Shown in pieces: positions 1,388 to 40,040 of a stretch of DNA of 41,181 nucleotides (its first letter is position 1; each line of letters starts with the position of its first letter). The notes beneath the pieces are model-generated. The model saw nothing but the letters and a program-made list of their open reading frames with translations, made no database searches and had not been told where the DNA came from. The DNA comes from Prevotella sp. (GTDB lineage Bacteria; Bacteroidota; Bacteroidia; Bacteroidales; Bacteroidaceae). Where the stretch lies: NCBI GenBank assembly GCA_017471245.1, contig JAFUVB010000012.1, forward strand, positions 1-41,181. Reading direction: 5' to 3'. The position numbers were made by a program, and so were the translations under genes.

Positions 1388-1972
1388 CTATTTGTTGAGA
1401 TTGCCAAGCAATTCAAATACCTTGTGAATCTCTGAATATGCAATTCTGTCTTCTGGATATGTCTTACTCATGGCAGAAAGCCTTTCAGCATTCGCTTTGG
1501 CTCGTTCCAAATCGCCGTTGGCAACAAGGAAGTCGTAAAGCTTGGTTTTGATAAAATACCGTTTGGTCTTCTCGTAGCCTGGCATATACTTCCTAAGCTC
1601 GAGTATCAGTTGGTCATAATTCTGGTATCGTCTGACAGTATTATCGGGCAAGAAATGCAACAGGAACCAAAACTCCGTGCAGGGACAGGTTTCGATGAAC
1701 ATGATGTCATGATTCTCCTTACGGTTCTTGAAAGACTGATATTTCTGCATTTCTGCCGGTTTCTCATAGAGCCTGTCCATGTCTATCAAGCATACAACAT
1801 AGTCATAATGCTCCACCAACTTTGCCTTGGCCAGTTTCAAAATGTGCTCAATATCGGCATGTTGAGGGAACCCCGGCGACAACTTAAATGGATATCGTTT
1901 GGCGATGCGAAGAGATTCAAAGTAGAACCACTCTGTTTCGCCTTCGCCAATGATAGCAATTGACTTTTTCAT
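1388..1972 (-). CDS. rloB: RloB-like TOPRIM-family protein
   Basis: 194 residues. The N-terminus has IIGEGETEWFYFESL, which matches the glutamate motif of TOPRIM-type nucleases, and CLIDMDRLYE gives the Asp-x-Asp motif. This pattern and length fit the RloB family, whose members sit beside AAA ATPases in restriction-linked and abortive-infection-like loci. The start codon overlaps the end of the upstream ATPase gene by 4 bp (ATGA), so the two are translationally coupled. Inferred role: the effector nuclease of a two-gene defence unit, held or triggered by the ATPase. DUF4435/AriB-like TOPRIM proteins are a possible alternative relative, but the EGETE start is more RloB-like. The biological activity of this copy is not shown by sequence. 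Confidence 0.8.
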   Translation of the reverse strand: MKKSIAIIGEGETEWFYFESLRIAKRYPFKLSPGFPQHADIEHILKLAKAKLVEHYDYVVCLIDMDRLYEKPAEMQKYQSFKNRKENHDIMFIETCPCTEFWFLLHFLPDNTVRRYQNYDQLILELRKYMPGYEKTKRYFIKTKLYDFLVANGDLERAKANAERLSAMSKTYPEDRIAYSEIHKVFELLGNLNK

Positions 1973-3186
1973 CCCTCTATCTCTTTTAAGTCCAGATACT
2001 GACTGCCAAGGAATGGCAGATTGACGAGTTTACCCTGCTTATAAGCATTATACGGTGACAGGTTCTTGTGTAATCCCATAGAAGAAAGCCGCTCTATATG
2101 AGTTTCTCCTTCTGAATTCTTATCCGTGAACCACACCGTGTCACGACGCACAAAGTCTTCGTTCAGCAGGTTGATGTCGTGGGTCGTGAAGAGCAATTGG
2201 GAAGTGTTGTCACTATTGGCGATAAACACTTTAATCAAATAGGACAACAGTTCGTAATGAATGCTCGTTTCCAACTCGTCAATGGCAATGAAATGAGAAT
2301 CGAAGAGCAACTGTTTCAGAATGGTGGTCATACCCATGAAGCGCATGGTACCACGTGACTCATAGCTTTCTGGTAGGTCAAAAGTGCCATTGTCCGTTTT
2401 ATGCTTGAAGAGTAGTTCGGGTGTAGTCCCCATCTTTCGTAACTCCACATTATCAATATTGAAGTCGGAGGCTTTTAGCATAAATACCAAGAAACGTTTA
2501 AGTGAACCGTTGCGATCATTCTCCAAATAGTTTCGAGTGAAGTCAGAAAGTGAAACATCTGGTGTCAACTGGTCACTGCAATGCCTCGAGAAAAAATCAT
2601 AGACGGCATTCAACTGAGATGCCTCGACATTCGACTTTCCAAAAGCAGCAATCACGCTACAATTATTGACGGTATTGCCCTCAATAATCGTCTGGCTCTT
2701 CTGAGTCAACTTGGCTTTAGTACTGAAAGTAATCTCCGTAGCATCCTTTACCTTATTATAAATACGGCGATAGAGGTTCGTTGGACGGTTTGTGGTATAG
2801 ACCATCAACGTCTCTTCATAGATACGAACGTCATCAAACTCAATATTCAGCACATAGCGTACCCCTTCAAGATAGAAGTCCATACCCATACGGCAATGTC
2901 CGTTTCTTGACTGTTCATCCAGCAGGAAGGGAACCAGTTTCATCGACTCGTTCCTGTCCTGAGGCACACGCAGCATCAGTTGTTTGAAAAATGAGAGTGC
3001 CTTTAATACATTACTCTTACCTGAAGCGTTGGCACCATAGATAACACCAATCTTTAACAGACTGACGTCATCCGTCACTTTGCTACAATACTCCTCGTTC
3101 ATAAACTTGTCGGGCGTGGCCACGAAACTAATCATCTGCTCACTCCTGATGGAGAAAAAATTACTGACTCTAAACTCTGCTATCAT
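1969..3186 (-). CDS. rloA: AAA-family ATPase, RloA-like
   Basis: 405 residues from ATG 3186. It opens MIAEFRVSNFFSIRSEQ, the usual start of OLD/RecF-like ABC ATPases. Walker A is GANASGKS near residues 51-58; the Walker B region is FIAIDELETSIH, and a switch His lies in FTTHDINLLNE. The frame stays open upstream to 3381, but a Bacteroidetes promoter at 3210-3240 places transcription start just before 3186, and the upstream codons come from a recombinase fragment in another frame. With RloB (4-bp overlap) and the primase-helicase it forms one leftward operon. Likely role: ATP-dependent sensor that controls the RloB nuclease. The name rloA rests on the RloB partner and AAA type; other OLD-like ATPases look similar. 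Confidence 0.82.
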   Translation of the reverse strand: MIAEFRVSNFFSIRSEQMISFVATPDKFMNEEYCSKVTDDVSLLKIGVIYGANASGKSNVLKALSFFKQLMLRVPQDRNESMKLVPFLLDEQSRNGHCRMGMDFYLEGVRYVLNIEFDDVRIYEETLMVYTTNRPTNLYRRIYNKVKDATEITFSTKAKLTQKSQTIIEGNTVNNCSVIAAFGKSNVEASQLNAVYDFFSRHCSDQLTPDVSLSDFTRNYLENDRNGSLKRFLVFMLKASDFNIDNVELRKMGTTPELLFKHKTDNGTFDLPESYESRGTMRFMGMTTILKQLLFDSHFIAIDELETSIHYELLSYLIKVFIANSDNTSQLLFTTHDINLLNEDFVRRDTVWFTDKNSEGETHIERLSSMGLHKNLSPYNAYKQGKLVNLPFLGSQYLDLKEIEG

Positions 3187-3209
3187 ACGCTTATCATTGA
3201 AAATCGCTA

Positions 3210-3240
3210 CAAAGATAGAATAAAAATATCTAATATCAAA
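3210..3240 (-). promoter_or_regulatory. Promoter of the rloA-rloB-primase operon
   Basis: On the minus strand TTTG (3240-3237), 19 bp, then TATCTTTG (3217-3210). This matches the Bacteroidetes TTTG/TAnnTTTG consensus and lies 23 bp before the ATG at 3186, which also supports that start. Confidence 0.75.
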
Positions 3241-3329
3241 ATTTATTTTGGATTTTCGTAGAATATTTACGATTTTCTCAATTAAAATGAGTTTATAGTT
3301 AAACCAATGACTGCAGTAAGCACCGTTGC

Positions 3330-3512
3330 ATTTTTTCCGTAATGACAGCACTTGAAGTAGCCAAGCAGGAATATATCGCATACCTTTTCCTCCACACCCT
3401 CCAACTTCATATCCTACATAGCATCTATCTCCTCATCTATTAGGTAGATCTCAGTCCGAGTTTCTTCCTCCTTGACTGTCCTCTCCTTCCATACCTTCAG
3501 CGAAACGGCATT
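3330..3512 (-). pseudogene. Tyrosine recombinase (integrase) fragment
   Basis: Reading leftward from 3512 the frame gives NAVSLKVWKERTVKEEE, then EIYLIDEEIDAM, a TAG stop, then DMKLEGVEEKVCDIFLLGYF before the similarity ends. This resembles the middle of Bacteroidetes phage-type integrases, from the core-binding domain into the catalytic domain (YLTxxEI...LxLxGxxExVRDxFLxGxxTxxR). No start, catalytic Arg or Tyr remains and an in-frame stop is present. The fragment sits just upstream of the RloAB operon and suggests the defence genes arrived with, or beside, a mobile element. The family call comes from motif resemblance only. Confidence 0.55.
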
Positions 3513-3973: not shown

Positions 3974-5173
3974 TTATTTCAACTGTTTGCCGTCAGCGAA
4001 AGCCTTGCCAACGGTTTTGCCAAGCTGAATATAAGTGTGGTGAACAGGATCGTAGGTGATAATACCCATTTTCTCCACGTCAGGTTTTCCGTCGGCTGCC
4101 AGATACTTTTCGTCGCAGAGCACGTTCACAATCTCTGCCACAAGGTTGTACCCGCTTTCAGATTCATCAATTTTCTGCTTCACGCGGCATTCGAGGGTCA
4201 ATGGCAGATTCGTGAAAACCGGTGCATTCACGTTGGGAGCCTTCTCGATATTCCAGCCAGTGCGCTCCATCTTGTCGGGAGTGTTTCGTCCACTTACGAT
4301 GCCCACATAGTCGGCTGCCACCATTGTCTCTGCTGTAGCGAAACTGATGGTTAGGGCATCATTGTTCTTGAGGTTGTCGGTCGTGGCATGGGAACCGAGC
4401 GAAATCATAATCTCATGCATGTCCCACTGACCGCCCCAAGCTGCATTCATAGCGTTGGGCTTACCGTTCTTGTCGTATGTGCCAATAATCAGCACGGGTT
4501 GTGGAATTACCCACGGGTTTGATTTGAAACTTTTCATCGCTTTTACTGTATTAGTGTTTAACTTGCTGTTTAATGCTTTTTGTATGTCGGCATCAATGTT
4601 TGCCATTTTGTCTGTCGGCTCATATCGTTTCACCACTTGGCCGTCACGAGTAACGAGGAACTTGGTGAAGTTCCATTTGATGTCAGATTTCTTGTCGTAA
4701 TCAGCATCTTTCTTGCGTAGCATGCCATCCATCATCTTGCCCCTTTGGTCGGTGAGGTCAAAGCCAGAGAATCCTTTCTGTTGTTTCAGATAGGTGAACA
4801 ATGGTGACTCATTGGCTCCGTTCACATCTATTTTGTCGAACTGAGGAAACTGAATATCGAAGTTGGCTGTGCAGAATTCGTGTATTTCCTGAATGGTGCC
4901 AGGTGCTTGTGCTCCAAACTGATTGCAGGGGAAGTCGAGGATCTCGAGTCCTTCGGCTTGATACTTCTCGTAGAGCGCCTCCAGTTCCTTGTACTGAGGA
5001 GTGAATCCGCATCGGGTGGCAGTGTTCACGATCAGCAGTACCTTGCCTTTGTACGCCGACAATGACACGTCTTTTCCTGCATCGTCCTTCACCTTGATGT
5101 CATAGATACTCTGCGCTGATGCTCCCAGCGCACATAAAGTTGCCAATAGGCAGATAGTCATTAGTCTTTTCAT
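3974..5173 (-). CDS. Exported glutathione peroxidase fused to flavin reductase
   Basis: 399 residues from ATG 5173; a TTG three codons earlier is less likely. Residues 1-21 are a signal peptide ending ASA-Q. Residues about 22-195 are a glutathione peroxidase with the peroxidatic Cys in NTATRCGFTPQY, FPCNQFG and KWNFTKFLV (Cys, Gln, Trp, Asn tetrad; no selenocysteine). From an internal Met (MKSFKSNPWVIPQPVLIIGTYD, split here: MKSFKSNPW then VIPQPVLIIGTYD) to the end is a flavin reductase-like FMN-binding split barrel with NAMNAAWGGQW. The linker resembles an untranslated spacer, and one neighbouring frame has a TAA at 4560-4558, so this may be a recent fusion of two adjacent genes. A signal peptide on an FMN reductase domain is odd. 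It lies 86 bp downstream of the OhrR-type regulator and probably shares its operon. Confidence 0.82.
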   Translation of the reverse strand: MKRLMTICLLATLCALGASAQSIYDIKVKDDAGKDVSLSAYKGKVLLIVNTATRCGFTPQYKELEALYEKYQAEGLEILDFPCNQFGAQAPGTIQEIHEFCTANFDIQFPQFDKIDVNGANESPLFTYLKQQKGFSGFDLTDQRGKMMDGMLRKKDADYDKKSDIKWNFTKFLVTRDGQVVKRYEPTDKMANIDADIQKALNSKLNTNTVKAMKSFKSNPWVIPQPVLIIGTYDKNGKPNAMNAAWGGQWDMHEIMISLGSHATTDNLKNNDALTISFATAETMVAADYVGIVSGRNTPDKMERTGWNIEKAPNVNAPVFTNLPLTLECRVKQKIDESESGYNLVAEIVNVLCDEKYLAADGKPDVEKMGIITYDPVHHTYIQLGKTVGKAFADGKQLK

Positions 5174-5259
5174 TGCTGTCAATTTGTTTTCTAATCATTA
5201 TAAAGTTTCTTGCCGTTCCCCCAGCCGTCGGTCAACTACGGGTTGGGGAAAGCATTTGT

Positions 5260-7514: not shown

Positions 7515-7689
7515 CGCTCATATTCCTCCATTCATGGCATTTATGAAGAAGCCAAGCCCCTCATCCCTCTACCTTATTACCTATAGAACGTGATGGTTGA
7601 TATTCATGAATGTATACTGTTGTGGTTGATGGACAGTTGCTTATTAAGCCGACAACCGACTAATGCTGAACCTCTGATTTATTTCTTCC

Positions 7690-8928
7690 TCAATAAATTC
7701 TCCTTTTAATGTCATATTCAACGACATCCCCCAAATAGTACTCTATCATTCTGTCTGGTTCTTCATTATAGATGACATCTTTCACTCTGACAAGGAGAAC
7801 ATCGTGGTCTTTCGTATAACTTGTATATAGCCTTAATATATCAGGTCGGCGAATATAGCGTTTTCCCGTCTCTTTGTCAACACGAGTTAGTTTGCCCATC
7901 GTGGTAGGCTTCAGTTCTCTGTATTCGATATCTTTCTCGCCTTTCAGTATCTGGTCGAAATATACTTGCTTGATGCTTAAACTGAGGACATCAAGACCTG
8001 TGGTGTCAAACTTCGCCGTACGTATTCTATTGAAACTATCATAGATACTATGCTCCAATGCCTGCTGTTCCCTGTTATACGTATAGTCTACGATACTGCC
8101 ATCAATAAACTTGACGATGGCTTCGCGTATAATGGGCAGTGGCACGACAAACCATTCCTTTGGATCTACGCCATCCATATTTACATAGAATCGTGCTGTA
8201 TGGAAGAAGTCGTGAATCAGTCCTTCCAATTTCTGCACATTGGCATTATACACACGATAGGTACTTACTACCTCCACATCAGCCATCAGATAGGTTGCCT
8301 CATTTCTGGCATTTTGAATACGCTCCTTTACTGGATTCGTTGTGAATCCTATTTTATACAAGTCCTTTACTGATGCAATACGCTCATCTGTCGATTTCGA
8401 GCGAAGAATGTATATCCAACCTTGCGGCAGGTCTTCATCTGTGATGTTGGCACCAGATAGCCCGTCCAACTCATGTCCGTCATTTAGTTCTGTAATCACA
8501 TAACCGTTGCGGGTGATGTTCTTTCCGATTGTTCTAAACAAGATGTTCGATTCCGTCCCGTCTTCATAGACGACCCTCGAACGTCCGTCTTTTCTGACGC
8601 GGTCTTTAATCTGTCGCTTGGCCACATCGAGTACGTCAATGTATCCCATCAAACCATCGGCAATGAAGAAAGTCTTCTCCTGTACATTATCCTCCTTATA
8701 GCGCACCAGCGAGCGTTTGCCCTCTCTGAGTTCCTTATGTACTTGAGCAAACAAGTGAGCATAATCGGCAAAGTTTTCGCACCTTTTCTTCTGTGCGATT
8801 TCCTCCACCTTACGTTTCTTTGACCTGCCTTTCTTCACTGGCTCTGGAAGATCAAAGAGTTTCTGCTCCTTCTCACTAATGTCAAACAGCGGATCGTTCA
8901 GTATTTCGTCAAGTTCCTTATCGCTCAT
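7690..8928 (-). CDS. GIY-YIG (T5orf172-type) nuclease fused to ASCH domain
   Basis: 412 residues. Residues 30-50 are Lys/Arg-rich. GWIYIL (170-175) and LYKIGFT (190-196) give the GIY and YIG elements; an Arg in KERIQNARNEA and a catalytic-type Glu in KLEGLIHDFF (about 235) complete a T5orf172-like GIY-YIG nuclease. The last 100 residues start LDVLSLSIKQVYFDQILKGEKDIEYRE (split: LDVLSLSIKQ, VYFDQILKG, EKDIEYRE), an ASCH/PUA-like fold that in relatives binds nucleic acid, possibly modified bases. It overlaps the preceding small gene by 11 bp and ends the operon after the helicase. Inferred role: DNA cleavage module of the restriction-like system, with ASCH as reader of base or nucleotide state. 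Confidence 0.8.
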   Translation of the reverse strand: MSDKELDEILNDPLFDISEKEQKLFDLPEPVKKGRSKKRKVEEIAQKKRCENFADYAHLFAQVHKELREGKRSLVRYKEDNVQEKTFFIADGLMGYIDVLDVAKRQIKDRVRKDGRSRVVYEDGTESNILFRTIGKNITRNGYVITELNDGHELDGLSGANITDEDLPQGWIYILRSKSTDERIASVKDLYKIGFTTNPVKERIQNARNEATYLMADVEVVSTYRVYNANVQKLEGLIHDFFHTARFYVNMDGVDPKEWFVVPLPIIREAIVKFIDGSIVDYTYNREQQALEHSIYDSFNRIRTAKFDTTGLDVLSLSIKQVYFDQILKGEKDIEYRELKPTTMGKLTRVDKETGKRYIRRPDILRLYTSYTKDHDVLLVRVKDVIYNEEPDRMIEYYLGDVVEYDIKRRIY

Positions 8929-9232
8929 CGTAAACAGTATCTAATAGTTTATACTCATCTTCTGCTCTTAGCATCTCTCGCCTCGCATCATCCTCGATGA
9001 TTCCTTGTAAACGACGAGCCAAGAGCCATTCATCCCTATTGCGTTTATCCATACGTGGTGCAGCACCTTGATGCCTACTGCTCCATTGGCAGAGCACCCG
9101 GAAACCATCTCTCACCACCTCTTCTTCTGTTGGTTTAGGAACCCGTGGGTGCACATTGGCAAACAAAGGGTCTTCAAATATCCTTAATAAGTCTTCCGGC
9201 CATGTAGCGGAAACAAATTTTTCACTCTTCAT
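8918..9232 (-). CDS. Small conserved-context protein of unknown function
   Basis: 104 residues, highly charged, no membrane segment and no family I recognise. The N-terminus has the motif WPEDLLRIFEDPLFANV; the start of the downstream nuclease has a similar ILNDPLFDIS stretch, so both may bind one partner through a DPLF-type segment. It lies 10 bp after the helicase and overlaps the nuclease gene by 11 bp, so it is almost certainly translated with them. The ATG at 9232 lies inside a 7-bp repeat array (9218-9245) that also holds the helicase stop. Possible adaptor between helicase and nuclease. Confidence 0.7.
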   Translation of the reverse strand: MKSEKFVSATWPEDLLRIFEDPLFANVHPRVPKPTEEEVVRDGFRVLCQWSSRHQGAAPRMDKRNRDEWLLARRLQGIIEDDARREMLRAEDEYKLLDTVYDER

Positions 9233-9245
9233 TCTTCATTTTTCA
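9218..9245. repeat. Heptamer array at the helicase/small-gene junction
   Basis: Four 7-bp units on the plus strand (TTTTTCA, CTCTTCA, TTCTTCA, TTTTTCA). Read leftward they give repeated TGAA(A/G)A units that contain the helicase stop (9245-9243) and two out-of-register ATGs, one of which (9232) starts the next gene. Confidence 0.8.
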
Positions 9246-11216
9246 CTTTACAAAGTCCAGTCCCATATCCCTACGAATCTTATAGTTTTTCAATATTCTG
9301 ATAGCTTCAGCCATCCGTCTCACTGTCGGGTCTGGATCTTGCAGTGATGGATGGTCACCATTAGTCTTTCTCCATTCCTGGAATACTGTCAGGTAAATCT
9401 TCTTGGCCTCATCAATGGTCATGTTGATTTTCTTGTCGGCAATGGTATCTTGAATAGCTTTCAAGACAGGTGCGTCAATCTCATTCGACATAATCTCGTA
9501 TGCCCTCTGGAAAGGATTGACAGACTCTATCAGGTTGATGCTTAGGTCATCTATATTAATAAAGGTATTGGCAATCTTCACCAGCCTACTTCCTTCGTGA
9601 TTCTCTACATCCTCCACAATGTCCTTGCCTTTCAACACGAAGTCGAGAACCACTCGCTGACTGATGGCTTCAATCTCTTCCTCCTCCAAGTCAGGGTGCA
9701 GCTCTTCTACTATTTTGGGGATATACACCTTGTTGATAATCTCTGGTGCCACGCCCTCAATAGCCTCCCTAATCAGCGGATGCTGCAGGATACCAGCTTT
9801 CAGGTCATCCAACTGTTCCTCCACTATCTGGCGGGCGCGATCTGTTCCCAAAGGCTTCAAGCCTTCAACAACCACATTCCTCCGTGGGTCTCCACCATCC
9901 TCTTCATCGCGACTTGTCTTGAAGTTCCACTTAGGTGCCATTACCTGCTCCATCAGTAGCGAGGCCGTAATGGCTTTTAGCATATCATTCACAGCCACCA
10001 CCACATCGTCTTGCGTCTCATCAGGTGCTGCTATCAAGTTCGTAAACTGAGCATGGTCTTTGCCTTCGCAGTCACGCGTACAGCGACCTATTATCTGTAC
10101 AATTTCTGTCAGCGACCCTCTTACTCCAATCGTGAGACAGTGTTCGCACCACTCCCAGTCGAAGCCTTCCTTGGCCATCCCCATTGCAATGATGATGTCG
10201 ATGTCATCGCGGTTCTTCATCCGTTGCAGATAGCCTTGAACGTGGTTGCGATGGTCAGCGTCAGGATTCACGAGGTCTGCAATCTTCAGCAGTCTGCCAT
10301 CCTTGGTCTTATAGGTAACGATATTGGTGTTATAGTCCTCATCCACTCTGTTTCCTATCAGGTCCATAATCTGCTTCACCTGTTCAAACTTGTCGTATGC
10401 CCCGGCAGCCTTTGAGTTGGTAACAGGGATGTGGATAAGTGTCTTCTGTCGAGTATCCAGCACCTTGTCAAGTGCCGACAGGTAATGACCTTTATAGAAG
10501 TGGTAGCCCAGTTGCAGGGTCTTCAGGTAGCGATAGCCATTCAACTGGTCGTAGTAGTTGAACTGAACTGGTACGAACCGCGTCTCGTCTTCCAGTCTCA
10601 GCACTGGTGTTCCGTCGCCACGGAAGTAGCTGCCCGTCATAGCCAGTATGTGGGCATTCGTCTGGTTTATCAGTCGTCTCACCAGTTCTCCCAGTCCATT
10701 GTCTGCATCTGCAGAAGTATGGTGAAACTCGTCAATGCCAAAGAACAGGTCGTTGAGTTTCTCGTCTGCCAGTTCCTTCAGGGCAAAGCGCAGGGTGGCA
10801 TGGGTGCAAACCAGTGTCTGAGCCTTGGTATACGGTTCCACAAACTCTTTGAAGCGTTTCACCTTTTCTTTCTCATTCTCAGTGTCGCATAGATTGAAAT
10901 AGGTCGGTACGTTCCAGTCCTCAAAGAAGCCGAACTTCTTCAGCGCTGTGTTTTTGAACGAGCGTCCTATGCTCTTTTCTGGTACAGCCACAATGACCTT
11001 CCTAATGCCTTGATGCGCCAACTTGTCGAGTGCCACAAACATCATAGCTCTCGATTTGCCCGAAGCAGGCGGAGCCTTCACCAACAGATACTGCTCTTCC
11101 CTACGTTCATAGACTCTGGCTTGCATTTCGCGCATACCCAAGCTGTTGGTATTTGTCGACCTCCCCGTCTGTTCATACGTGATGGTCATCTGGTCCTGAT
11201 TATAGTTTTCTCGCAT
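9243..11216 (-). CDS. SF2 DEAD/DEAH-type helicase of a restriction-like system
   Basis: 657 residues. Walker A is KAPPASGKSR (47-56); motif II is FFGIDEFHH; motif III is LAMTGSY; a late motif is MAKEGFDW; motif VI is QIIGRCTRD. These define a type III/HsdR-like SF2 translocase without a visible nuclease domain. The C-terminal third is helical with no known family. It is followed within 10 bp by the small protein and the GIY-YIG nuclease. The methyltransferase lies upstream on the same strand, separated by a toxin-antitoxin pair on the other strand. Inferred role: DNA translocation or duplex opening that couples recognition by the methyltransferase to cleavage. No clear minus-strand promoter was found before 11216. 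Confidence 0.85.
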   Translation of the reverse strand: MRENYNQDQMTITYEQTGRSTNTNSLGMREMQARVYERREEQYLLVKAPPASGKSRAMMFVALDKLAHQGIRKVIVAVPEKSIGRSFKNTALKKFGFFEDWNVPTYFNLCDTENEKEKVKRFKEFVEPYTKAQTLVCTHATLRFALKELADEKLNDLFFGIDEFHHTSADADNGLGELVRRLINQTNAHILAMTGSYFRGDGTPVLRLEDETRFVPVQFNYYDQLNGYRYLKTLQLGYHFYKGHYLSALDKVLDTRQKTLIHIPVTNSKAAGAYDKFEQVKQIMDLIGNRVDEDYNTNIVTYKTKDGRLLKIADLVNPDADHRNHVQGYLQRMKNRDDIDIIIAMGMAKEGFDWEWCEHCLTIGVRGSLTEIVQIIGRCTRDCEGKDHAQFTNLIAAPDETQDDVVVAVNDMLKAITASLLMEQVMAPKWNFKTSRDEEDGGDPRRNVVVEGLKPLGTDRARQIVEEQLDDLKAGILQHPLIREAIEGVAPEIINKVYIPKIVEELHPDLEEEEIEAISQRVVLDFVLKGKDIVEDVENHEGSRLVKIANTFINIDDLSINLIESVNPFQRAYEIMSNEIDAPVLKAIQDTIADKKINMTIDEAKKIYLTVFQEWRKTNGDHPSLQDPDPTVRRMAEAIRILKNYKIRRDMGLDFVK

Positions 11217-11230
11217 ATTTTCGTTTTTTG

Positions 11231-11261
11231 TTTGTTCTTTCAGAATTTATTCGTAACTTTG
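11231..11261 (+). promoter_or_regulatory. Promoter of the YoeB-type toxin-antitoxin pair
   Basis: TTTG (11231-11234), 19 bp, TAACTTTG (11254-11261): a full Bacteroidetes consensus, 27 bp before the antitoxin ATG at 11289 and within the 72-bp gap in front of the helicase gene on the other strand. Confidence 0.8.
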
Positions 11262-11288
11262 CTGACGAATTACATATATAAAAGATTT

Positions 11289-11549
11289 ATGACAGCAGTA
11301 CAGCTAAACGCACAGAACACAAAGCTCTGGCAAGATATAGGGGCAATAGCCGACAGCGAGCAGTTGATGAAACGGCTGGCTAAGTATGTTGCGAAACTTG
11401 TGAAAGAAAAGGAAAATTCAACACTCATGTCCAAGGAAGAGTTCTTCGCGAAGATTGAAAAGGCAGAAGCCGATTTCCGTGAAGGTCGAACATACGCCAT
11501 GCTCCCGGGAGAGAGTTTCACAGACTTCCGTAAACGTATTGGCAAATGA
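11289..11549 (+). CDS. Antitoxin of a YoeB/Txe-type pair
   Basis: 86 residues from ATG 11289. An upstream open frame to 11010 was rejected because the promoter at 11231-11261 lies inside it. The N-terminal half (MTAVQLNAQNTKLWQDIGAI and a Lys/Glu-rich helix) may form the DNA-binding and dimer part. The C-terminal half (MSKEEFFAKIEKAEADFREG) is a long amphipathic helix of the kind that wraps the toxin. It overlaps the toxin gene by 4 bp. It is recognised mainly by context; the fold (Phd/YefM-like or other) is not certain. Confidence 0.75.
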   Translation: MTAVQLNAQNTKLWQDIGAIADSEQLMKRLAKYVAKLVKEKENSTLMSKEEFFAKIEKAEADFREGRTYAMLPGESFTDFRKRIGK

Positions 11550-11821
11550 GTTATATTGTTAGCCTTTCTGAACAGGCTCTGGCTGATGCAGATCGTTTGG
11601 AACAGAGCGAGCCCAAGGCTTTCCAGAAGTTTCAGACTTTTCTGACTGAACTGGCTGAGCATCCAAGGACAGGTACTGGTCATCCTGAGCAATTGAAGGG
11701 ACAGCCAGAAGACCGCTGGAGTCGTCGTATCTCCAAAAAACATCGTTTGGTCTATCGCATTTACGATACCGAAGTTGTTGTGCTTGTTATCTCTGCATAC
11801 GGGCATTATGATGACAAATAG
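11546..11821 (+). CDS. Txe/YoeB-family toxin, ribosome-dependent mRNA interferase
   Basis: 91 residues. WSRRISKKHRLVYRIYDTEV and a final GHYDDK match the RelE-fold Txe/YoeB core: basic residues for RNA contact, the HRLVY strand, and a His-Tyr end that in YoeB supplies the active site. The family cleaves mRNA in the ribosome A site. It overlaps the antitoxin by 4 bp and ends 1 bp before the end of the converging methyltransferase gene. The pair is therefore packed between two genes of one restriction-like system, on the opposite strand. Confidence 0.88.
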   Translation: MSYIVSLSEQALADADRLEQSEPKAFQKFQTFLTELAEHPRTGTGHPEQLKGQPEDRWSRRISKKHRLVYRIYDTEVVVLVISAYGHYDDK

Positions 11822-11822
11822 T

Positions 11823-14570
11823 TTATCCATTTTTCTTCATCTTTTCGTATAACTTCAGCAACAACTCCAGCCGCTCGTTCTCATCTGCAAAGGGGCGGTC
11901 GCGATAACAGCTATCTACCAACAGGTCCAACTGATGGTGAGCCTCGCGCAGGTCTGCAGGCATTTTCTCTGGGTCATAAAGCTCTGCCAGCGTCTTGCCA
12001 TGATGCGCCTCACGTGCTCCTAACACCTCGTAGGCAGCATCTTCTATTTCCTGTTTCTTGGCTTCCGTCAGTTTGGGGAAGGGAAACGGATTATAACAGA
12101 GACCGGCAGAATAGCGATAGTCAGTTTTCAATCTTCCACCTATGGCACGTACCCACGCCATGTGCATAGCGGAGGTGAGAATGCCAAAGAGCCAATAGGG
12201 GGCATCGTAAAGGGCAAAGGCCGAGTCAGAGACCACAGTTTCTTCATCAAGAAACTTCATGGGTATATATTCTCTTTGTTCTGATGAAACACGGGGTATT
12301 ATGACAAGTCTCTTGTTCTCATGCCTTATCTCACCAAACTTATATGGAAAAGCAGCCAACTTTCTTGTGGCGCCACGCTTGCTACTGCCTCTGACTTTTT
12401 CACATAACAATATTCTTTCCTTAATAGGTGGTATTCTGTATGCAAAATCTTTGTCAACATCAGTAATCCACAAACAGAACCTATCTACTCTTCGTATTAA
12501 CTCTAACGATCCCATCAGTGGCTTTATGATAGAGGAAGCCTCTGGGTATTCATCAAGAATTTTATCTTTCTCGTATTTGTCTAATGTAAGTGCCCCATCA
12601 TCATTTGCCATGCTGCCAAACACAATCTCAGGAACCTTTGCAATAGGCGACGATTGTGGTGAAACTATTACATTAGATCCTTCTGTCAAATACGGGTTAA
12701 TATTATTTACCAATCTTGCTTTGTCACCATCATACAGATATTTATCGCCTTTCTCAAATTCACGAATGCCAACGATAACACAAGTAACTCCTGCATTATA
12801 CTTCGCATTGTTAGTCCATTTAAAAGAGTGATGGGCAAAGAATATTTCTTGATTGTTCGCAAATACGTGTGGCCAAAGTAGACTCACTTGCAAACCTTGA
12901 CATACGGAATTAGTACTCACAAAGGCGAACTTAGCTTGCGTGCCTTTTATATATTGAGAACCAAGTATGAACCAGCAGGCAATGTAGTCGAGGTTATCGC
13001 AACCCTTTTCATGATTGAAAACATACTCAACATCTTCTTTTTGTTTGTCATCTTGCAGACGCGCACCCAAATACGGCGGATTTCCCATCACATATACTTC
13101 CTCGTCTGCCGTATGCGGACAAATCTTGTTCCAGTCCTCTCGGCAGGCATTGCCACAATGGAAATTGTTGTTCGACTTTAGGGGCAGTGCTTTGATGTTC
13201 ACGCCAAAGTCTTTCATGAAGAGACTATTCATCTGGTGCTCTGCCAGCCATAGCGAAAGGACTGCCGTCTCGCAAGCGAAATCGTTGATCTCTAAACCAT
13301 AGAACTGGTTGATGGCGATTATGCTGCCGTCTACAAACTGCATCTGCACGTCAGGCGTCATCCGTTGCATCAGCTTCAGAATCTTCATTTCCAGCATGCG
13401 CAATTCCTTATAGGAAATGATGAGGAAGTTACCACTACCACAGGCAGGGTCGAAGAACTTCATCCGCTTCATCCGCGACAACAATCGCTGGCATTGGCGA
13501 ATCAGCGGCTTACAACTGCTGTAGTATTTCTCTCGTCCCTCCTTCGACTGGTCAAAGATGCCGTCTTGCTCCTTCTGTTTCCGCTCTATGTTTCTGTATT
13601 CTTCATAGAGGCCATCAAGAAATAGCGGATTGATAACCTTCTTGATGTTTGAGACGCTGGTGTAGTGCATGCCCAAGCCACTGCGCAGCTCTGGATTCAC
13701 CACGGCCTGAATCATCGAACCGAAGATGTCGGGATTGATCTTTGCCCAGTTCAGATTGCCACACTCCAAGATGAGTTTCCTGATGCGGGCATTCATCCGC
13801 GGGATGCGAATCTTCTGGGTAAACAACCCGCCATTCACGTAGGGGAACTGGGCAAAGCGGCTGTTGATGCCTATGCGCAGTTGCATCATCATGGCTTGGA
13901 AAGCACCGTCGAAAAATTCCTCTAAGTCAGAACAGTCAGGGCGCGTGGTGTTGTTGATGGCATTGGTAAACAAATCCTTTTCGAAGATACCCGTGTCTTC
14001 GGCAAAGAAGCAGAAGAGAAGGCGCGACATAAAGACGTTCAGGTCGTGAGTATCGTCCGTGATGCCTATTTGGTTGTATCGGCGAATCTCATCATGTATC
14101 TGCCCCATCTTGTAGGCCGCCTTCACGTCAGCATCGTTCTCCTCAATGTTGCGAATCTTACGCACTCCCCACATTGGCGAGAAGAATTCATAGTCTGTAA
14201 ACAGGTTGTTCAGATGGTTCTCGTAGGTCTCTTCCACCGCTGGGTCGAATGCCTTGATGACTTCACCATCCGACACTGCCAGTATGGCGGGCTTGTTTTT
14301 CAGAACCCACTTGTCGCGCTTCATGTCTTCCAGCTGGGCGTTCATGTTTTCTGTCCGCACCAGCCGATAAGCCAACACGTTCTTGATGAGCAGACCTTCA
14401 AACGAAGCCACCGTGCTCTTGCCCTCCCTATACCGTTGCAGGATGGTAGGCGACGCTCCGATGGCTCCCATCAGCATAAAGGGGATCTCCTTTACAGGAT
14501 ACGCCTCCTTGAATGCTTCCAGCCCAAGACCTATCTGCACGTAAGTCTTGGCCGTCTTGATAGCAGCCAT
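11823..14570 (-). CDS. MmeI/YeeA-type adenine DNA methyltransferase
   Basis: 915 residues. Residues 1-150 resemble the N-terminal region of MmeI-like proteins, but I see no D...ExK nuclease motif. A helical spacer (NVFMSRLLFCFFAEDTGIF, 188-206) follows. Motif I is FDPACGSGNFL (383-393), then YGLEINDFACETA, and motif IV is GNPPY (506-510): a gamma-class N6-adenine methyltransferase. The end (MPADLREAHHQLD, then ERLELLLKLYEKM) is the typical MmeI/YeeA C-terminal helical domain; the middle would carry target recognition. Downstream on the same strand are a helicase and GIY-YIG nuclease that probably replace the lost nuclease. As I recall, Bacillus subtilis yeeA-yeeB-yeeC has a similar order. It protects host DNA in that model. 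A long structured leader lies upstream. Confidence 0.85.
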   Translation of the reverse strand: MAAIKTAKTYVQIGLGLEAFKEAYPVKEIPFMLMGAIGASPTILQRYREGKSTVASFEGLLIKNVLAYRLVRTENMNAQLEDMKRDKWVLKNKPAILAVSDGEVIKAFDPAVEETYENHLNNLFTDYEFFSPMWGVRKIRNIEENDADVKAAYKMGQIHDEIRRYNQIGITDDTHDLNVFMSRLLFCFFAEDTGIFEKDLFTNAINNTTRPDCSDLEEFFDGAFQAMMMQLRIGINSRFAQFPYVNGGLFTQKIRIPRMNARIRKLILECGNLNWAKINPDIFGSMIQAVVNPELRSGLGMHYTSVSNIKKVINPLFLDGLYEEYRNIERKQKEQDGIFDQSKEGREKYYSSCKPLIRQCQRLLSRMKRMKFFDPACGSGNFLIISYKELRMLEMKILKLMQRMTPDVQMQFVDGSIIAINQFYGLEINDFACETAVLSLWLAEHQMNSLFMKDFGVNIKALPLKSNNNFHCGNACREDWNKICPHTADEEVYVMGNPPYLGARLQDDKQKEDVEYVFNHEKGCDNLDYIACWFILGSQYIKGTQAKFAFVSTNSVCQGLQVSLLWPHVFANNQEIFFAHHSFKWTNNAKYNAGVTCVIVGIREFEKGDKYLYDGDKARLVNNINPYLTEGSNVIVSPQSSPIAKVPEIVFGSMANDDGALTLDKYEKDKILDEYPEASSIIKPLMGSLELIRRVDRFCLWITDVDKDFAYRIPPIKERILLCEKVRGSSKRGATRKLAAFPYKFGEIRHENKRLVIIPRVSSEQREYIPMKFLDEETVVSDSAFALYDAPYWLFGILTSAMHMAWVRAIGGRLKTDYRYSAGLCYNPFPFPKLTEAKKQEIEDAAYEVLGAREAHHGKTLAELYDPEKMPADLREAHHQLDLLVDSCYRDRPFADENERLELLLKLYEKMKKNG

Positions 14571-36533: not shown

Positions 36534-36938
36534 TCATTGTGACTCCAGTATCTCCAGCATCTCGGCAGGGGTCACCACAATAGGCGTTCTGGGGAAGTGC
36601 TTCTTGTTGCCCGTCACCAGATAGGCATCGTCCTTCGAGAGCGCAACTTCATAGAACACAACGTCTTTCGGGTCGGGAAAATGCTCCTGGGACGGAACTC
36701 GCTCGCCATGAATTCCGTTCATAAGCACTCTGTCTATTGCCCACTTTATTAGATGTTCTGGGATATCGAACTTCTTACGATGCAACACCTCAGTATATTC
36801 ATCAATCATCTCATCGCTATAAACAGGCTTGATTCTCCCATCCAGAACAGCAGCCCAGACCATTGAGGTCGCCGCCAAAGGATTCTTTGTAATGTAAGCT
36901 GACACAATAACGTTTGTGTCGATAACTGCATAAATCAT
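36534..36938 (-). CDS. PIN-domain toxin
   Basis: 134 residues. YAVIDTNVIVSAY gives the first acidic residue of the PIN nuclease site; YSDEMIDEYTEVLHR, HFPDPKDVVFYEVAL and AYLVTGNKKHFP supply the remaining acidic positions (Asp/Glu and a final Asn/Asp area). PIN proteins of this putative-toxin family cut RNA. The gene overlaps the upstream antitoxin gene by 4 bp. A PIN toxin beside a RelB/DinJ antitoxin is a less usual pairing, since DinJ normally goes with YafQ. Located next to the repeat-rich region, which may hold regulator sites. Confidence 0.85.
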   Translation of the reverse strand: MIYAVIDTNVIVSAYITKNPLAATSMVWAAVLDGRIKPVYSDEMIDEYTEVLHRKKFDIPEHLIKWAIDRVLMNGIHGERVPSQEHFPDPKDVVFYEVALSKDDAYLVTGNKKHFPRTPIVVTPAEMLEILESQ

Positions 36939-37243
36939 ACCGCAGCTTTCTTTCTATCCGCCATTTCCTCGCGTGCCAAGCGGATTTCCTCATTTATTTC
37001 TTCCATCGTCAGTTCAGGGCGTTCACTGGCGGCTACTTGATTGCGGAATTCGTAGAAGTCTCTCAGCACATTATCCTCGGTTGGGTATGCTGAAATCTTA
37101 AAGGGAATACTCCTGGTCTTAACCACCGCATTTACAAACACGTTGATGGCGGTGTTGACGCTCATGCCAATCTCATTGCAGAGTTCGTTGAACTGCTTCT
37201 TCAGTTGTGAGTCCATCCTCACGGTCATTGATACTTGTGCCAT
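36935..37243 (-). CDS. RelB/DinJ-family antitoxin
   Basis: 102 residues. AQVSMTVRMDSQLKKQFNEL starts a ribbon-helix-helix domain (strand, then helices with GMSVNTAINVFVNAVV), the DinJ/RelB form that binds operator DNA as a dimer. The C-terminal half (MEEINEEIRLAREEMADRKK) is helical and would neutralise the toxin. It is first in a two-gene unit with the PIN toxin (4-bp overlap) and probably represses it. A -7 box TATATTTG (37271-37264) lies 20 bp upstream. Confidence 0.87.
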   Translation of the reverse strand: MAQVSMTVRMDSQLKKQFNELCNEIGMSVNTAINVFVNAVVKTRSIPFKISAYPTEDNVLRDFYEFRNQVAASERPELTMEEINEEIRLAREEMADRKKAAV

Positions 37244-38022: not shown

Positions 38023-39015
38023 TCACTTGTGAATCTCCAAGAACTTATACCCGTTGAGGTGCATCATGTGATTGGGTTCGTTGGCAAACCACACCTCCGT
38101 TTCCCAGGCAATCTCCTTCAAATGCTTCAAACCTTCCGTTTTGGTAAGGAATGCTGTAACATACACAACGCTTGCCTCGCAATTGGCCACGAGTTGTTTC
38201 AGAGAACTGACACGCTCATTGTTCATCGGGTTTGAAGAGTGATATGCCTCAATCAGAAACAGCAGATTCTTCTCGCGGCTATAGGCTACAATATCAGGCA
38301 ACGTGCCATGCTCCAATGTGATATGGAGCTGCTTCAATGCCTCTGCGTCGCGATGAAGATATTTATCGATGCTGTCACCGATATAAAGGACTTCAGCACC
38401 CATGCCATACACAGACAGGAAATCCTCAACGATTTTCTTCTGTAGCAGGTTATGCTCGCCTGTTGACAACTCCAATGTCACTCCAGAAGGCAAGGTGACG
38501 GGAATACGTTCCATTGCACGCTTCTTTTCAAGCTCTTCTTTTGCTTTAAGGTGTATTTCAATGAATTTGAATAGTTGAGTTTCCCATTTGCTGGTACCAT
38601 ACGCTTTCAGTAGGTTCGCAAACGGTGCACTCAGCGTATAACCGCGATTGGGATCATTGGTAGCAGCCTGATCTAACTCAGAGGAGTTTATCACAAGTCC
38701 CTCATCAAGCAGCGGTTTCAAATCCTTGCGGCGAATATCATCGTAAGAACCTGATGAAATTTCCTCGCCGTAGTGTTTGTTCTCAAACTTAATGATGTCC
38801 CTCGTTTTCAGGTAACTGCCATCCATAACTGACTTGGCCTCCTTGAACGACTTTACAATCTGTCCTGCGGCCAAGCATGCGCCAGCCATCTTCTCTCGCC
38901 TGCGGTCGGAAGGAAGCGTGTCAACAGGGATTCCTACGGCCATTAATATGTCAAGCATGTCAGAATACAACTTCTGGACTTGCTCACTTTTACCTTCTGT
39001 AAATTTTATACGCAT
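38023..39015 (-). CDS. Type II restriction endonuclease, BsuBI/PstI-like
   Basis: 330 residues. The C-terminal half has GAEVLYIGDSIDKYLH, then LPDIVAYSREKNLLFLIEA, VVYVTAFLTKTEG and IAWETEVWFANEPNHMMH, the conserved series of the BsuBI/PstI family (PD-(D/E)xK-type fold). The N-terminal half is helical and would hold DNA contacts. BsuBI and PstI cut CTGCAG and are paired with adenine methyltransferases; here the partner overlapping by 10 bp is a C5-cytosine methyltransferase, so the recognition site may differ. No frameshift seen; probably active. Confidence 0.88.
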   Translation of the reverse strand: MRIKFTEGKSEQVQKLYSDMLDILMAVGIPVDTLPSDRRREKMAGACLAAGQIVKSFKEAKSVMDGSYLKTRDIIKFENKHYGEEISSGSYDDIRRKDLKPLLDEGLVINSSELDQAATNDPNRGYTLSAPFANLLKAYGTSKWETQLFKFIEIHLKAKEELEKKRAMERIPVTLPSGVTLELSTGEHNLLQKKIVEDFLSVYGMGAEVLYIGDSIDKYLHRDAEALKQLHITLEHGTLPDIVAYSREKNLLFLIEAYHSSNPMNNERVSSLKQLVANCEASVVYVTAFLTKTEGLKHLKEIAWETEVWFANEPNHMMHLNGYKFLEIHK

Positions 39016-40040
39016 ACGGTATCAAATAAAGTCTGTCCTTGGAAAATGTTGATTTCTCTGATTTCCGCTTCCATCTTTGGTGAAGAATGGTAAGTGTCCT
39101 TCAACGCTAATGCCAGTTTGTATGCCAGTAGTGGAGGTACTGCATTACCTATCTGATAGAACTGTCGCGTTTCTGTACCGCAAAATTCAAACCAATCTGG
39201 GAAACTCTGTAGGCGCGCAGCCTCACGAACCTCAATCCTGCGACGCCGCCCATCAGGCAACTTCACGCGTTGCATATCGCTCGTTGCTCCTGCCAGATTG
39301 CGGCAGGTAATGGTACGGGCAGGTTTGTCTGGATGCAGGTCACGAGGATTGATACAATGCGACTTCTCTTCATAGACAGCAATGTAGCGTTCTTGCTCTG
39401 GAGTCAGAAATTTACTGTTCTCATCAGACTTAGTCATCAAGTCGCCTATGGCCTCGACTACAGTAACCTTCTTCTGCTCTTTCCTGGGGAACCTGAATGT
39501 AGAGCGATGGCCTACGCAGATAAGCCGCTCACGGTTTTGCGGCACACCGTAATCAACAGCATTCACTATTCTGTATTCCACGACATATCCCAATTTGCGA
39601 AGTTCGGCTACGACAAGTTCAAGATACCACTTGTGGCGACCCAAGATGTTTGCCACGTTTTCGAACATGAATACTTTGGGCTTCAGACGCTTCACGGCAT
39701 CAATGAATACGGGGAAACCATCACGTGCATCCTCAATGCCTTTCTGGTTGCCAAAACGGCTGAAAGGCTGGCAGGGAGGACCTCCTATGATAATGTCTAT
39801 CTTGTCGGATTCTGGATAGTTGAAGCCTACCTCTAAGAACTGATTATAGCATGTACCCTTCAAATTCTTATTATAGGTATCTACAGCGGCATCAACCATT
39901 TCGTAGCCAATGGTACGGAAGCCTGCTGCTTCGAAGCCAAGAGACAAACCGCCACACCCCGCAAACAAGTCGAGCACTACAGCCTCTTCTTCAATCTTTG
40001 GGGTAAGCCTGTCGTGTATGAGGTAACTATATTCTGTCAT
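39006..40040 (-). CDS. C5-cytosine DNA methyltransferase
   Basis: 344 residues. Motif I VLDLFAGCGGLSLGFE, motif IV GGPPCQPFSRFG with the catalytic Cys, motif VI FENV, motif VIII QNRERLICVG, motif IX VREAARLQSFPDWF and motif X QIGNAVPPLLAYK are all present. The variable region between VIII and IX is of moderate size and gives target choice. It is upstream of and overlaps the endonuclease gene, so the two form a type II restriction-modification unit in which the methyltransferase is made first. A -7 box TAATTTTG (40068-40061) lies 20 bp before ATG 40040. Confidence 0.94.
   Translation of the reverse strand: MTEYSYLIHDRLTPKIEEEAVVLDLFAGCGGLSLGFEAAGFRTIGYEMVDAAVDTYNKNLKGTCYNQFLEVGFNYPESDKIDIIIGGPPCQPFSRFGNQKGIEDARDGFPVFIDAVKRLKPKVFMFENVANILGRHKWYLELVVAELRKLGYVVEYRIVNAVDYGVPQNRERLICVGHRSTFRFPRKEQKKVTVVEAIGDLMTKSDENSKFLTPEQERYIAVYEEKSHCINPRDLHPDKPARTITCRNLAGATSDMQRVKLPDGRRRRIEVREAARLQSFPDWFEFCGTETRQFYQIGNAVPPLLAYKLALALKDTYHSSPKMEAEIREINIFQGQTLFDTVCV

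Follow-up and report, generated by a model that had tools for sequence, protein, structure and literature searches.

A DnmA-YeeB-YeeC operon of Prevotella and the cargo slot between its methyltransferase and helicase genes

Introduction

Excerpts of two papers on Bacillus subtilis DnmA (PMC7261158, 2020; PMC9973331, 2023) describe an enzyme that places N6-methyladenine at GACGAG. It is similar to MmeI except that the MmeI nuclease motif is missing, and in other species yeeB and yeeC follow its gene. According to the same excerpts, B. subtilis DnmA showed no restriction phenotype; they also cite Vibrio crassostreae, where deletion of dnmA and yeeB increased sensitivity to some phages; these are the published direct tests in that material for a family that is widespread, with helicase relatives on many plasmids. 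Here we analyze a 41,181-base stretch of Prevotella sp. DNA ("the window", one entire contig, JAFUVB010000012.1, of a 3.7 Mb genome in 114 contigs), whose operon at positions 7690 to 14570 is DnmA(YeeA)-YeeB-YeeC in a derived Bacteroidota form. The operon is real, conserved and intact, and of a known kind; the newly measured part is a cargo slot between its methyltransferase and helicase genes, of which we found no published description, as judged from literature listings and passages. We read the operon as a DnmA-YeeB-YeeC restriction-modification (R-M) system resembling a stripped-down, ATP-dependent type I system, and give this reading a probability of about 0.72.

Toxin-like genes are known from other R-M operons. 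Excerpts of PMC3710099 place RhuM, DOC/Fic and AbiJ inside such operons, describe PrrC as kept inactive by its R-M system, and propose a multi-level defense for RhuM and DOC.

Results and Discussion

The operon and its relatives

The open reading frame (ORF) listing of the window contains all four genes named in a preliminary description of this DNA, each correctly placed, together with an opposite-strand YoeB pair that the description overlooked, as it did the slot:

7690..8928, minus strand: YeeC-type T5orf172 GIY-YIG nuclease with a predicted C-terminal ASCH domain (Pfam; structure matches)
8918..9232, minus strand: 104-residue protein, a separate gene for the YeeC N-terminal domain (profile of 24 separate genes)
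9243..11216, minus strand: YeeB-type SF2 helicase/translocase, 657 residues (Pfam DEAD/ResIII; alignment of relatives)
11231..11261, plus strand: promoter-like site TTTG-N19-TAnnTTTG (exact match)
11289..11549, plus strand: putative antitoxin, 86 residues (ORF and overlap with the toxin start; no family matched)
11546..11821, plus strand: YoeB/Txe-type toxin gene (TIGR02116 and Pfam YoeB_toxin)
11823..14570, minus strand: DnmA/YeeA-type MmeI-like adenine methyltransferase (Pfam MmeI_Mtase/TRD/C/hel/N; profile alignment to MmeI 5hr4)

The gene order, the nuclease-less MmeI-like methyltransferase, the SF2 helicase and the T5orf172 GIY-YIG protein downstream of it on the same strand are all shared with B. 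subtilis DnmA-YeeB-YeeC, and the likeness to Bacillus yeeA-yeeB-yeeC drawn in the preliminary description stands. The window differs from B. subtilis in having a YeeC divided between two genes, a predicted ASCH domain and the YoeB pair inside the operon. With MmeI/type IIL (IIG) enzymes the locus has in common the methyltransferase, spacer, target recognition domain (TRD) and C-terminal domains, and the best PADLOC label for the methyltransferase is REase_MTase_IIG (969 bits); however, MmeI/type IIL enzymes carry a PD-(D/E)XK nuclease in the methyltransferase polypeptide, and the N-terminal D70..E80xK82 of MmeI is not retained in the window methyltransferase; cutting would fall to separate proteins. 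As in type I R-M (HsdR/HsdM/HsdS), methyltransferase and translocase are separate, and as in the type I operons with PrrC, RhuM or DOC, toxin-like genes lie inside the operon. In contrast to type I, which has HsdS, recognition lies in the methyltransferase, and none of the locus proteins scanned matched Methylase_S. HsdR carries a PD-ExK nuclease; in the helicase here, sequence profiles matched no nuclease domain, and a GIY-YIG nuclease is present instead. BREX and DISARM also combine a methyltransferase with a helicase. Scanning five locus proteins led us to reject both: PglX reached 27 bits against a cut-off of 900, with no other Brx part, and for DISARM no DrmA, DrmB or DrmD part was found, the one resemblance being that of the methyltransferase to DrmMI (100 bits).

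An alignment of the helicase with seven relatives was made, and the helicase was then used to fetch loci, giving a comparison set of 44 viral-collection loci (one of them no relative) and the best 80 of 554 confirmed genome loci, which for that reason lean to near relatives. L011 and L139 (duplicates) and L142 (not a relative) were dropped; near-copies remain among the kept loci (L073/L112, L084/L103), the L018 methyltransferase is a remnant, and in several loci a gene is cut by the contig end. By ORF calling and profiles, nearly all loci run from methyltransferase through helicase to YeeC, with the methyltransferase upstream in 102 of the 103 loci having at least 3.5 kb of upstream sequence and YeeC downstream in 122 of the 125 with at least 1.3 kb downstream. 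Tree groups include Bacteroidota, Pseudomonadota, Bacillota, Campylobacterota, Spirochaetota, Planctomycetota and Methanobacteriota. The one exception among the 103 is L023 (Bacteroides ihuae), where an AlbA_2-type gene takes the place of the methyltransferase; no DnmA-type methyltransferase was found within 8.9 kb upstream, nor at E 1e-40 in G238, which is probably the same genome. In this locus the helicase and a fused, ASCH-bearing YeeC stand directly behind the AlbA_2-like gene (7532-12483).

Asking whether the homologs mostly stand apart, we did not find helicase and YeeC apart: of 395 genomes searched in the phylum, 9 carry the helicase (E up to 1e-20), and exactly these 9 also have YeeC (E up to 1e-10), adjoining it. 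MmeI-type methyltransferases occur in 44 of the 395 (E up to 1e-40), including 7 of the helicase-bearing 9; the remaining 37 genomes are without the helicase, and the methyltransferases sampled from them are of the nuclease-bearing kind. Among the matches listed, the nearest named helicase relatives are uncultured Prevotellaceae and Bacteroidaceae metagenome-assembled genomes (MAGs). The helicase alone, counted without neighbor genes, matched 261 of 72,556 plasmid records, all at below 60% identity; 149 of these matches span at least 80% of the helicase length, and 116 lie on plasmids predicted to be conjugative. A phage collection search returned two fragments only.

These data also bear on whether the operon is a relic, with the methyltransferase retained as an orphan enzyme that regulates genes and with a defunct helicase and nuclease, which is the conclusion drawn for B. 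subtilis in the excerpts of PMC9973331 and PMC7261158. For the window we consider this improbable. Every operon ORF is intact and retains its invariant residues; the same order, coupling and residues recur in many phyla, which decay would not produce; and the Vibrio deletions cited in the same excerpts carry a phage phenotype.

Methyltransferase, helicase and nuclease

The TRD lies within the methyltransferase polypeptide (Pfam). Profile alignment to MmeI (5hr4) shows that the N-terminal D70..E80xK82 is not kept, E80 aligning to R69 and K82 to V71, and an intact nuclease site in this N-terminus was rejected. Within the phylum, D..ExK is kept in 19 of 20 sampled MmeI-type loci without an adjoining helicase and is found at the aligned position in 0/7 helicase-linked methyltransferases. 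Judged from these alignments, the methyltransferase retains a nuclease-like N-terminal fold from which the catalytic residues are gone, and the cutting site has been lost where YeeB-YeeC is present. This comparative argument bears out the earlier proposal in that the methyltransferase has lost its nuclease site and has a separate nuclease as constant partner; a conserved D..ExK, looked for in the N-terminus of the linked methyltransferases, is absent. Foldseek gave no match for the methyltransferase N-domain with E under 0.001, and a second look with VIA gave restriction-fold chains, MmeI being absent among the 50 matches listed. The window's genome also encodes another MmeI-type enzyme, in which a D..ExK-like nuclease site is retained (L193, G000:C21:29900-32779).

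In the helicase, Walker A starts at about residue 48, which leaves little room for an N-terminal nuclease, and no nuclease domain was matched in its 657 residues by sequence profiles. In YeeC, the GIY-YIG domain covers about residues 162-294 and the predicted ASCH domain about 305-412; the predicted structure has a pLDDT (predicted local distance difference test) of 87.5 and gave structure matches. G170, Y173, K192, G194, R203, E235, H239, E258 and W259 are identical in 122/122 YeeC proteins. Helicase and YeeC profiles found no solved relative by sequence.

The 104-residue protein and YeeC are separate genes in 24 loci and fused in 100 (L057, at a contig end, being left out). When only the 24 separate genes went into a profile, it matched 100/100 fused YeeC proteins and 0 reversed sequences, and in 95/100 the match extended no farther than residue 130; the window's small protein used as a single query reached 23/100 at E up to 0.01. 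On this profile evidence, the small protein is the N-terminal domain of YeeC, encoded by a gene of its own. The preliminary description had counted it as one part of a four-part system, a view that falls with this result, and a new four-component system was rejected.

Some observations run counter to these conclusions. At other positions within the N-terminal 140 residues, 3/101 linked methyltransferases (L013, L019, L081) contain a D-x9-E-x-K by chance, and L013 belongs to the seven compared above. Moreover, an earlier iterated small-protein profile had absorbed some helicase matches, and the homology claim therefore rests on the 24-gene profile.

As a weak lead, 24/128 helicases (E up to 1e-3) have in their C-terminus a motif of 35-68 residues that the small protein also contains, with 0 matches in reversed sequences, shuffled sequences and methyltransferases. 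It is undetected in the window helicase; residues 606-654 of the L091 helicase provide an example. Possibly, the motif shared by the helicase C-terminus and the small protein/YeeC N-domain is a common docking element.

The predicted ASCH domain is present in 23/122 YeeC proteins, and the other 99 are without an ASCH-length extension while retaining the same partners. By this distribution ASCH is a Bacteroidota add-on rather than a general sensor; the earlier suggestion that it reads base state for the system is not sustained, and ASCH as a core sensor was rejected. The operon might alternatively be a type IV-like, modification-dependent nuclease, with ASCH recognizing the modified bases of a phage and YeeC cleaving the modified DNA; given that partners are unchanged in the YeeC proteins without the extension, we regard this as very unlikely. 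Both ASCH and the "fourth gene" are thereby removed from the core mechanism.

In our preferred reading, that of an ATP-dependent R-M system, the MmeI-type methyltransferase would recognize an asymmetric site via its own TRD and methylate adenine on one strand, for which B. subtilis DnmA is the precedent. At an unmethylated site it would instead act as recognition subunit for the YeeB translocase, with the YeeC GIY-YIG domain as the likely cutting element. The small protein/YeeC N-domain is probably an adaptor joining nuclease and helicase, ASCH may tune substrate choice as a lineage-specific addition, and the methyltransferase-helicase junction would serve as a swap site for extra modules.

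The cargo slot

Gaps between methyltransferase and helicase are bimodal (n=112, leaving out L098, whose methyltransferase lies downstream): 57 are at most 100 bp, 3 are 101-400 bp and 52 exceed 400 bp. As the L056 "gap" is a methyltransferase fragment and is left out of the cargo count, inserted genes occupy the slot in 51/112 loci. Conversely, between helicase and YeeC 1/124 loci has a gap longer than 150 bp, namely L013 (384 bp). The only helicase-YeeC insertion seen is a 23S_rRNA_IVP-like ORF in that locus (9014-9232, minus strand).

Forty of the 80 slot ORFs listed were scanned, and 27 of these matched a Pfam family at E up to 0.001, some below the curated cut-off. The families are RhuM, Bro-N, AlbA_2, YhcG/DUF1016, Fic, 23S_rRNA_IVP, Zeta toxin, ParE, AbiJ_NTD4, AAA_15/21 with DUF4435, FRG, DUF3800, PDDEXK_4, SecB, DUF3990, Kinase-PolyVal and others. 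Six cargo families gave 28 matches in 72 kb of slot versus 12 in the remaining flanks (1,182 kb), a ratio biased upward because the search seeds came from slots; of the 12, 5 lie upstream of a helicase without visible methyltransferase, 6 downstream and 1 between helicase and YeeC.

On a quick tree with long branches, which does not distinguish gain from loss, the occupied/empty state requires at least 25 changes over 107 labelled rows (L056 labelled as cargo). Shuffling the labels 200 times gave a mean of 35.6 and a minimum of 29; since 25 lies below this minimum, occupancy is partly inherited. Individual families require nearly one change per locus, 7 for 8 loci for RhuM and 8 for 8 for AlbA_2. 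Taken together, the methyltransferase-helicase junction looks like a slot filled many times by different toxin-like genes.

RhuM was also examined away from the operon, in 30 loci taken from the 39/198 genomes that carry it, with 46 of about 74 flanking ORFs passed through Pfam. The flanks held N6_Mtase (3), N6_N4_Mtase (3), Methylase_S (3) and HSDR_N (1), and RhuM therefore lies beside R-M genes sometimes, but far from always; none of the 30 loci had a helicase, methyltransferase or YeeC of the DnmA-YeeB-YeeC family. The window's own genome (G000) has five RhuM-family matches, a number equalled but not exceeded elsewhere in the 198.

In our preferred reading, slot modules are exchangeable, perhaps suicidal, back-up. 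A competing view, to which we give less than even odds, is that they are passive hitch-hikers, addictive or neutral, settled at the junction where they do least harm, and that YoeB has no part in defense. The slot indeed fits genes of many unrelated families, it is occupied less often in viral-collection loci (8/33) than in genome loci (36/71, L056 still included), and both YoeB cases described below are antisense with their own promoter-like site. Against passive settlement, co-directional cargo is the rule, with the first co-directional ORF overlapping the methyltransferase stop in 23/49 loci (cargo starts taken as the earliest possible); the helicase-YeeC junction is nearly empty; and, in the excerpts of PMC3710099, RhuM, DOC/Fic and AbiJ recur in other R-M operons. 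The slot is a place to ask whether back-up toxins are wired to restriction, and whether the family restricts DNA and whether it guards cargo modules can now be put to direct test.

The YoeB pair

The window's own cargo is the YoeB pair. The toxin gene, which exceeds its model cut-off (TIGR02116, 70.8 bits against 51.8), stands tail-to-tail with the methyltransferase, their stops 1 bp apart; the antitoxin ORF overlaps the toxin start by 4 bp and begins 72 bp from the helicase start. No Pfam family matched the 86-residue putative antitoxin. Among the loci examined, L025 (a Prevotella MAG) alone is arranged in the same way, and these two cases take two changes on the tree.

The exact string TTTG-N19-TAnnTTTG, which we take to be the Bacteroidota-type promoter consensus, occurs twice in the window against 0.15 expected. 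The copy at 11231..11261 points toward the antitoxin and away from the helicase, and the L025 leader also has an exact copy toward the antitoxin. In the 114-120 bp upstream of the helicase, no promoter-like site within one mismatch was found in the helicase direction in either locus. As the sites face the antitoxin and none faces the helicase, helicase-nuclease transcription may depend on read-through or a weak promoter and may be opposed by toxin-antitoxin transcription. Of all the steps we propose, this one is the boldest and has the least support. RNA structure in the 84-nt toxin-antitoxin leader was rejected (z +0.94).

Given the precedents of PrrC, RhuM and DOC in R-M operons, YoeB and its antitoxin would most likely be a back-up or addiction module, brought into action by failure of restriction or loss of the operon. 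A more ambitious version makes the operon a plug-in defense platform, the methyltransferase-helicase junction being a dedicated socket into which separate lineages fit exchangeable suicide modules, restrained by the restriction complex as PrrI restrains PrrC. Here, the antisense, self-promoted YoeB pair would oppose methyltransferase read-through into the promoter-poor helicase-nuclease half, and the toxin-antitoxin state would also set the amount of restriction. We think this unlikely, though less so than a relic.

Other genes of the window

On the minus strand at 38023-40040, a BsuBI/PstI-type restriction endonuclease adjoins a C-5 cytosine methyltransferase; the family is usually paired with an adenine methyltransferase, and the pairing may therefore be unusual. 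Also on the minus strand, a RloB-like gene adjoins an AAA_21/AbiEii-type ATPase at 1388-3381, in what looks like an ATPase-plus-partner defense pair, and a RelB-type antitoxin accompanies a PIN_3 protein at 36534-37243. Finally, a single minus-strand ORF at 3974-5182 is an odd fusion, matching glutathione peroxidase as well as a flavin reductase domain.

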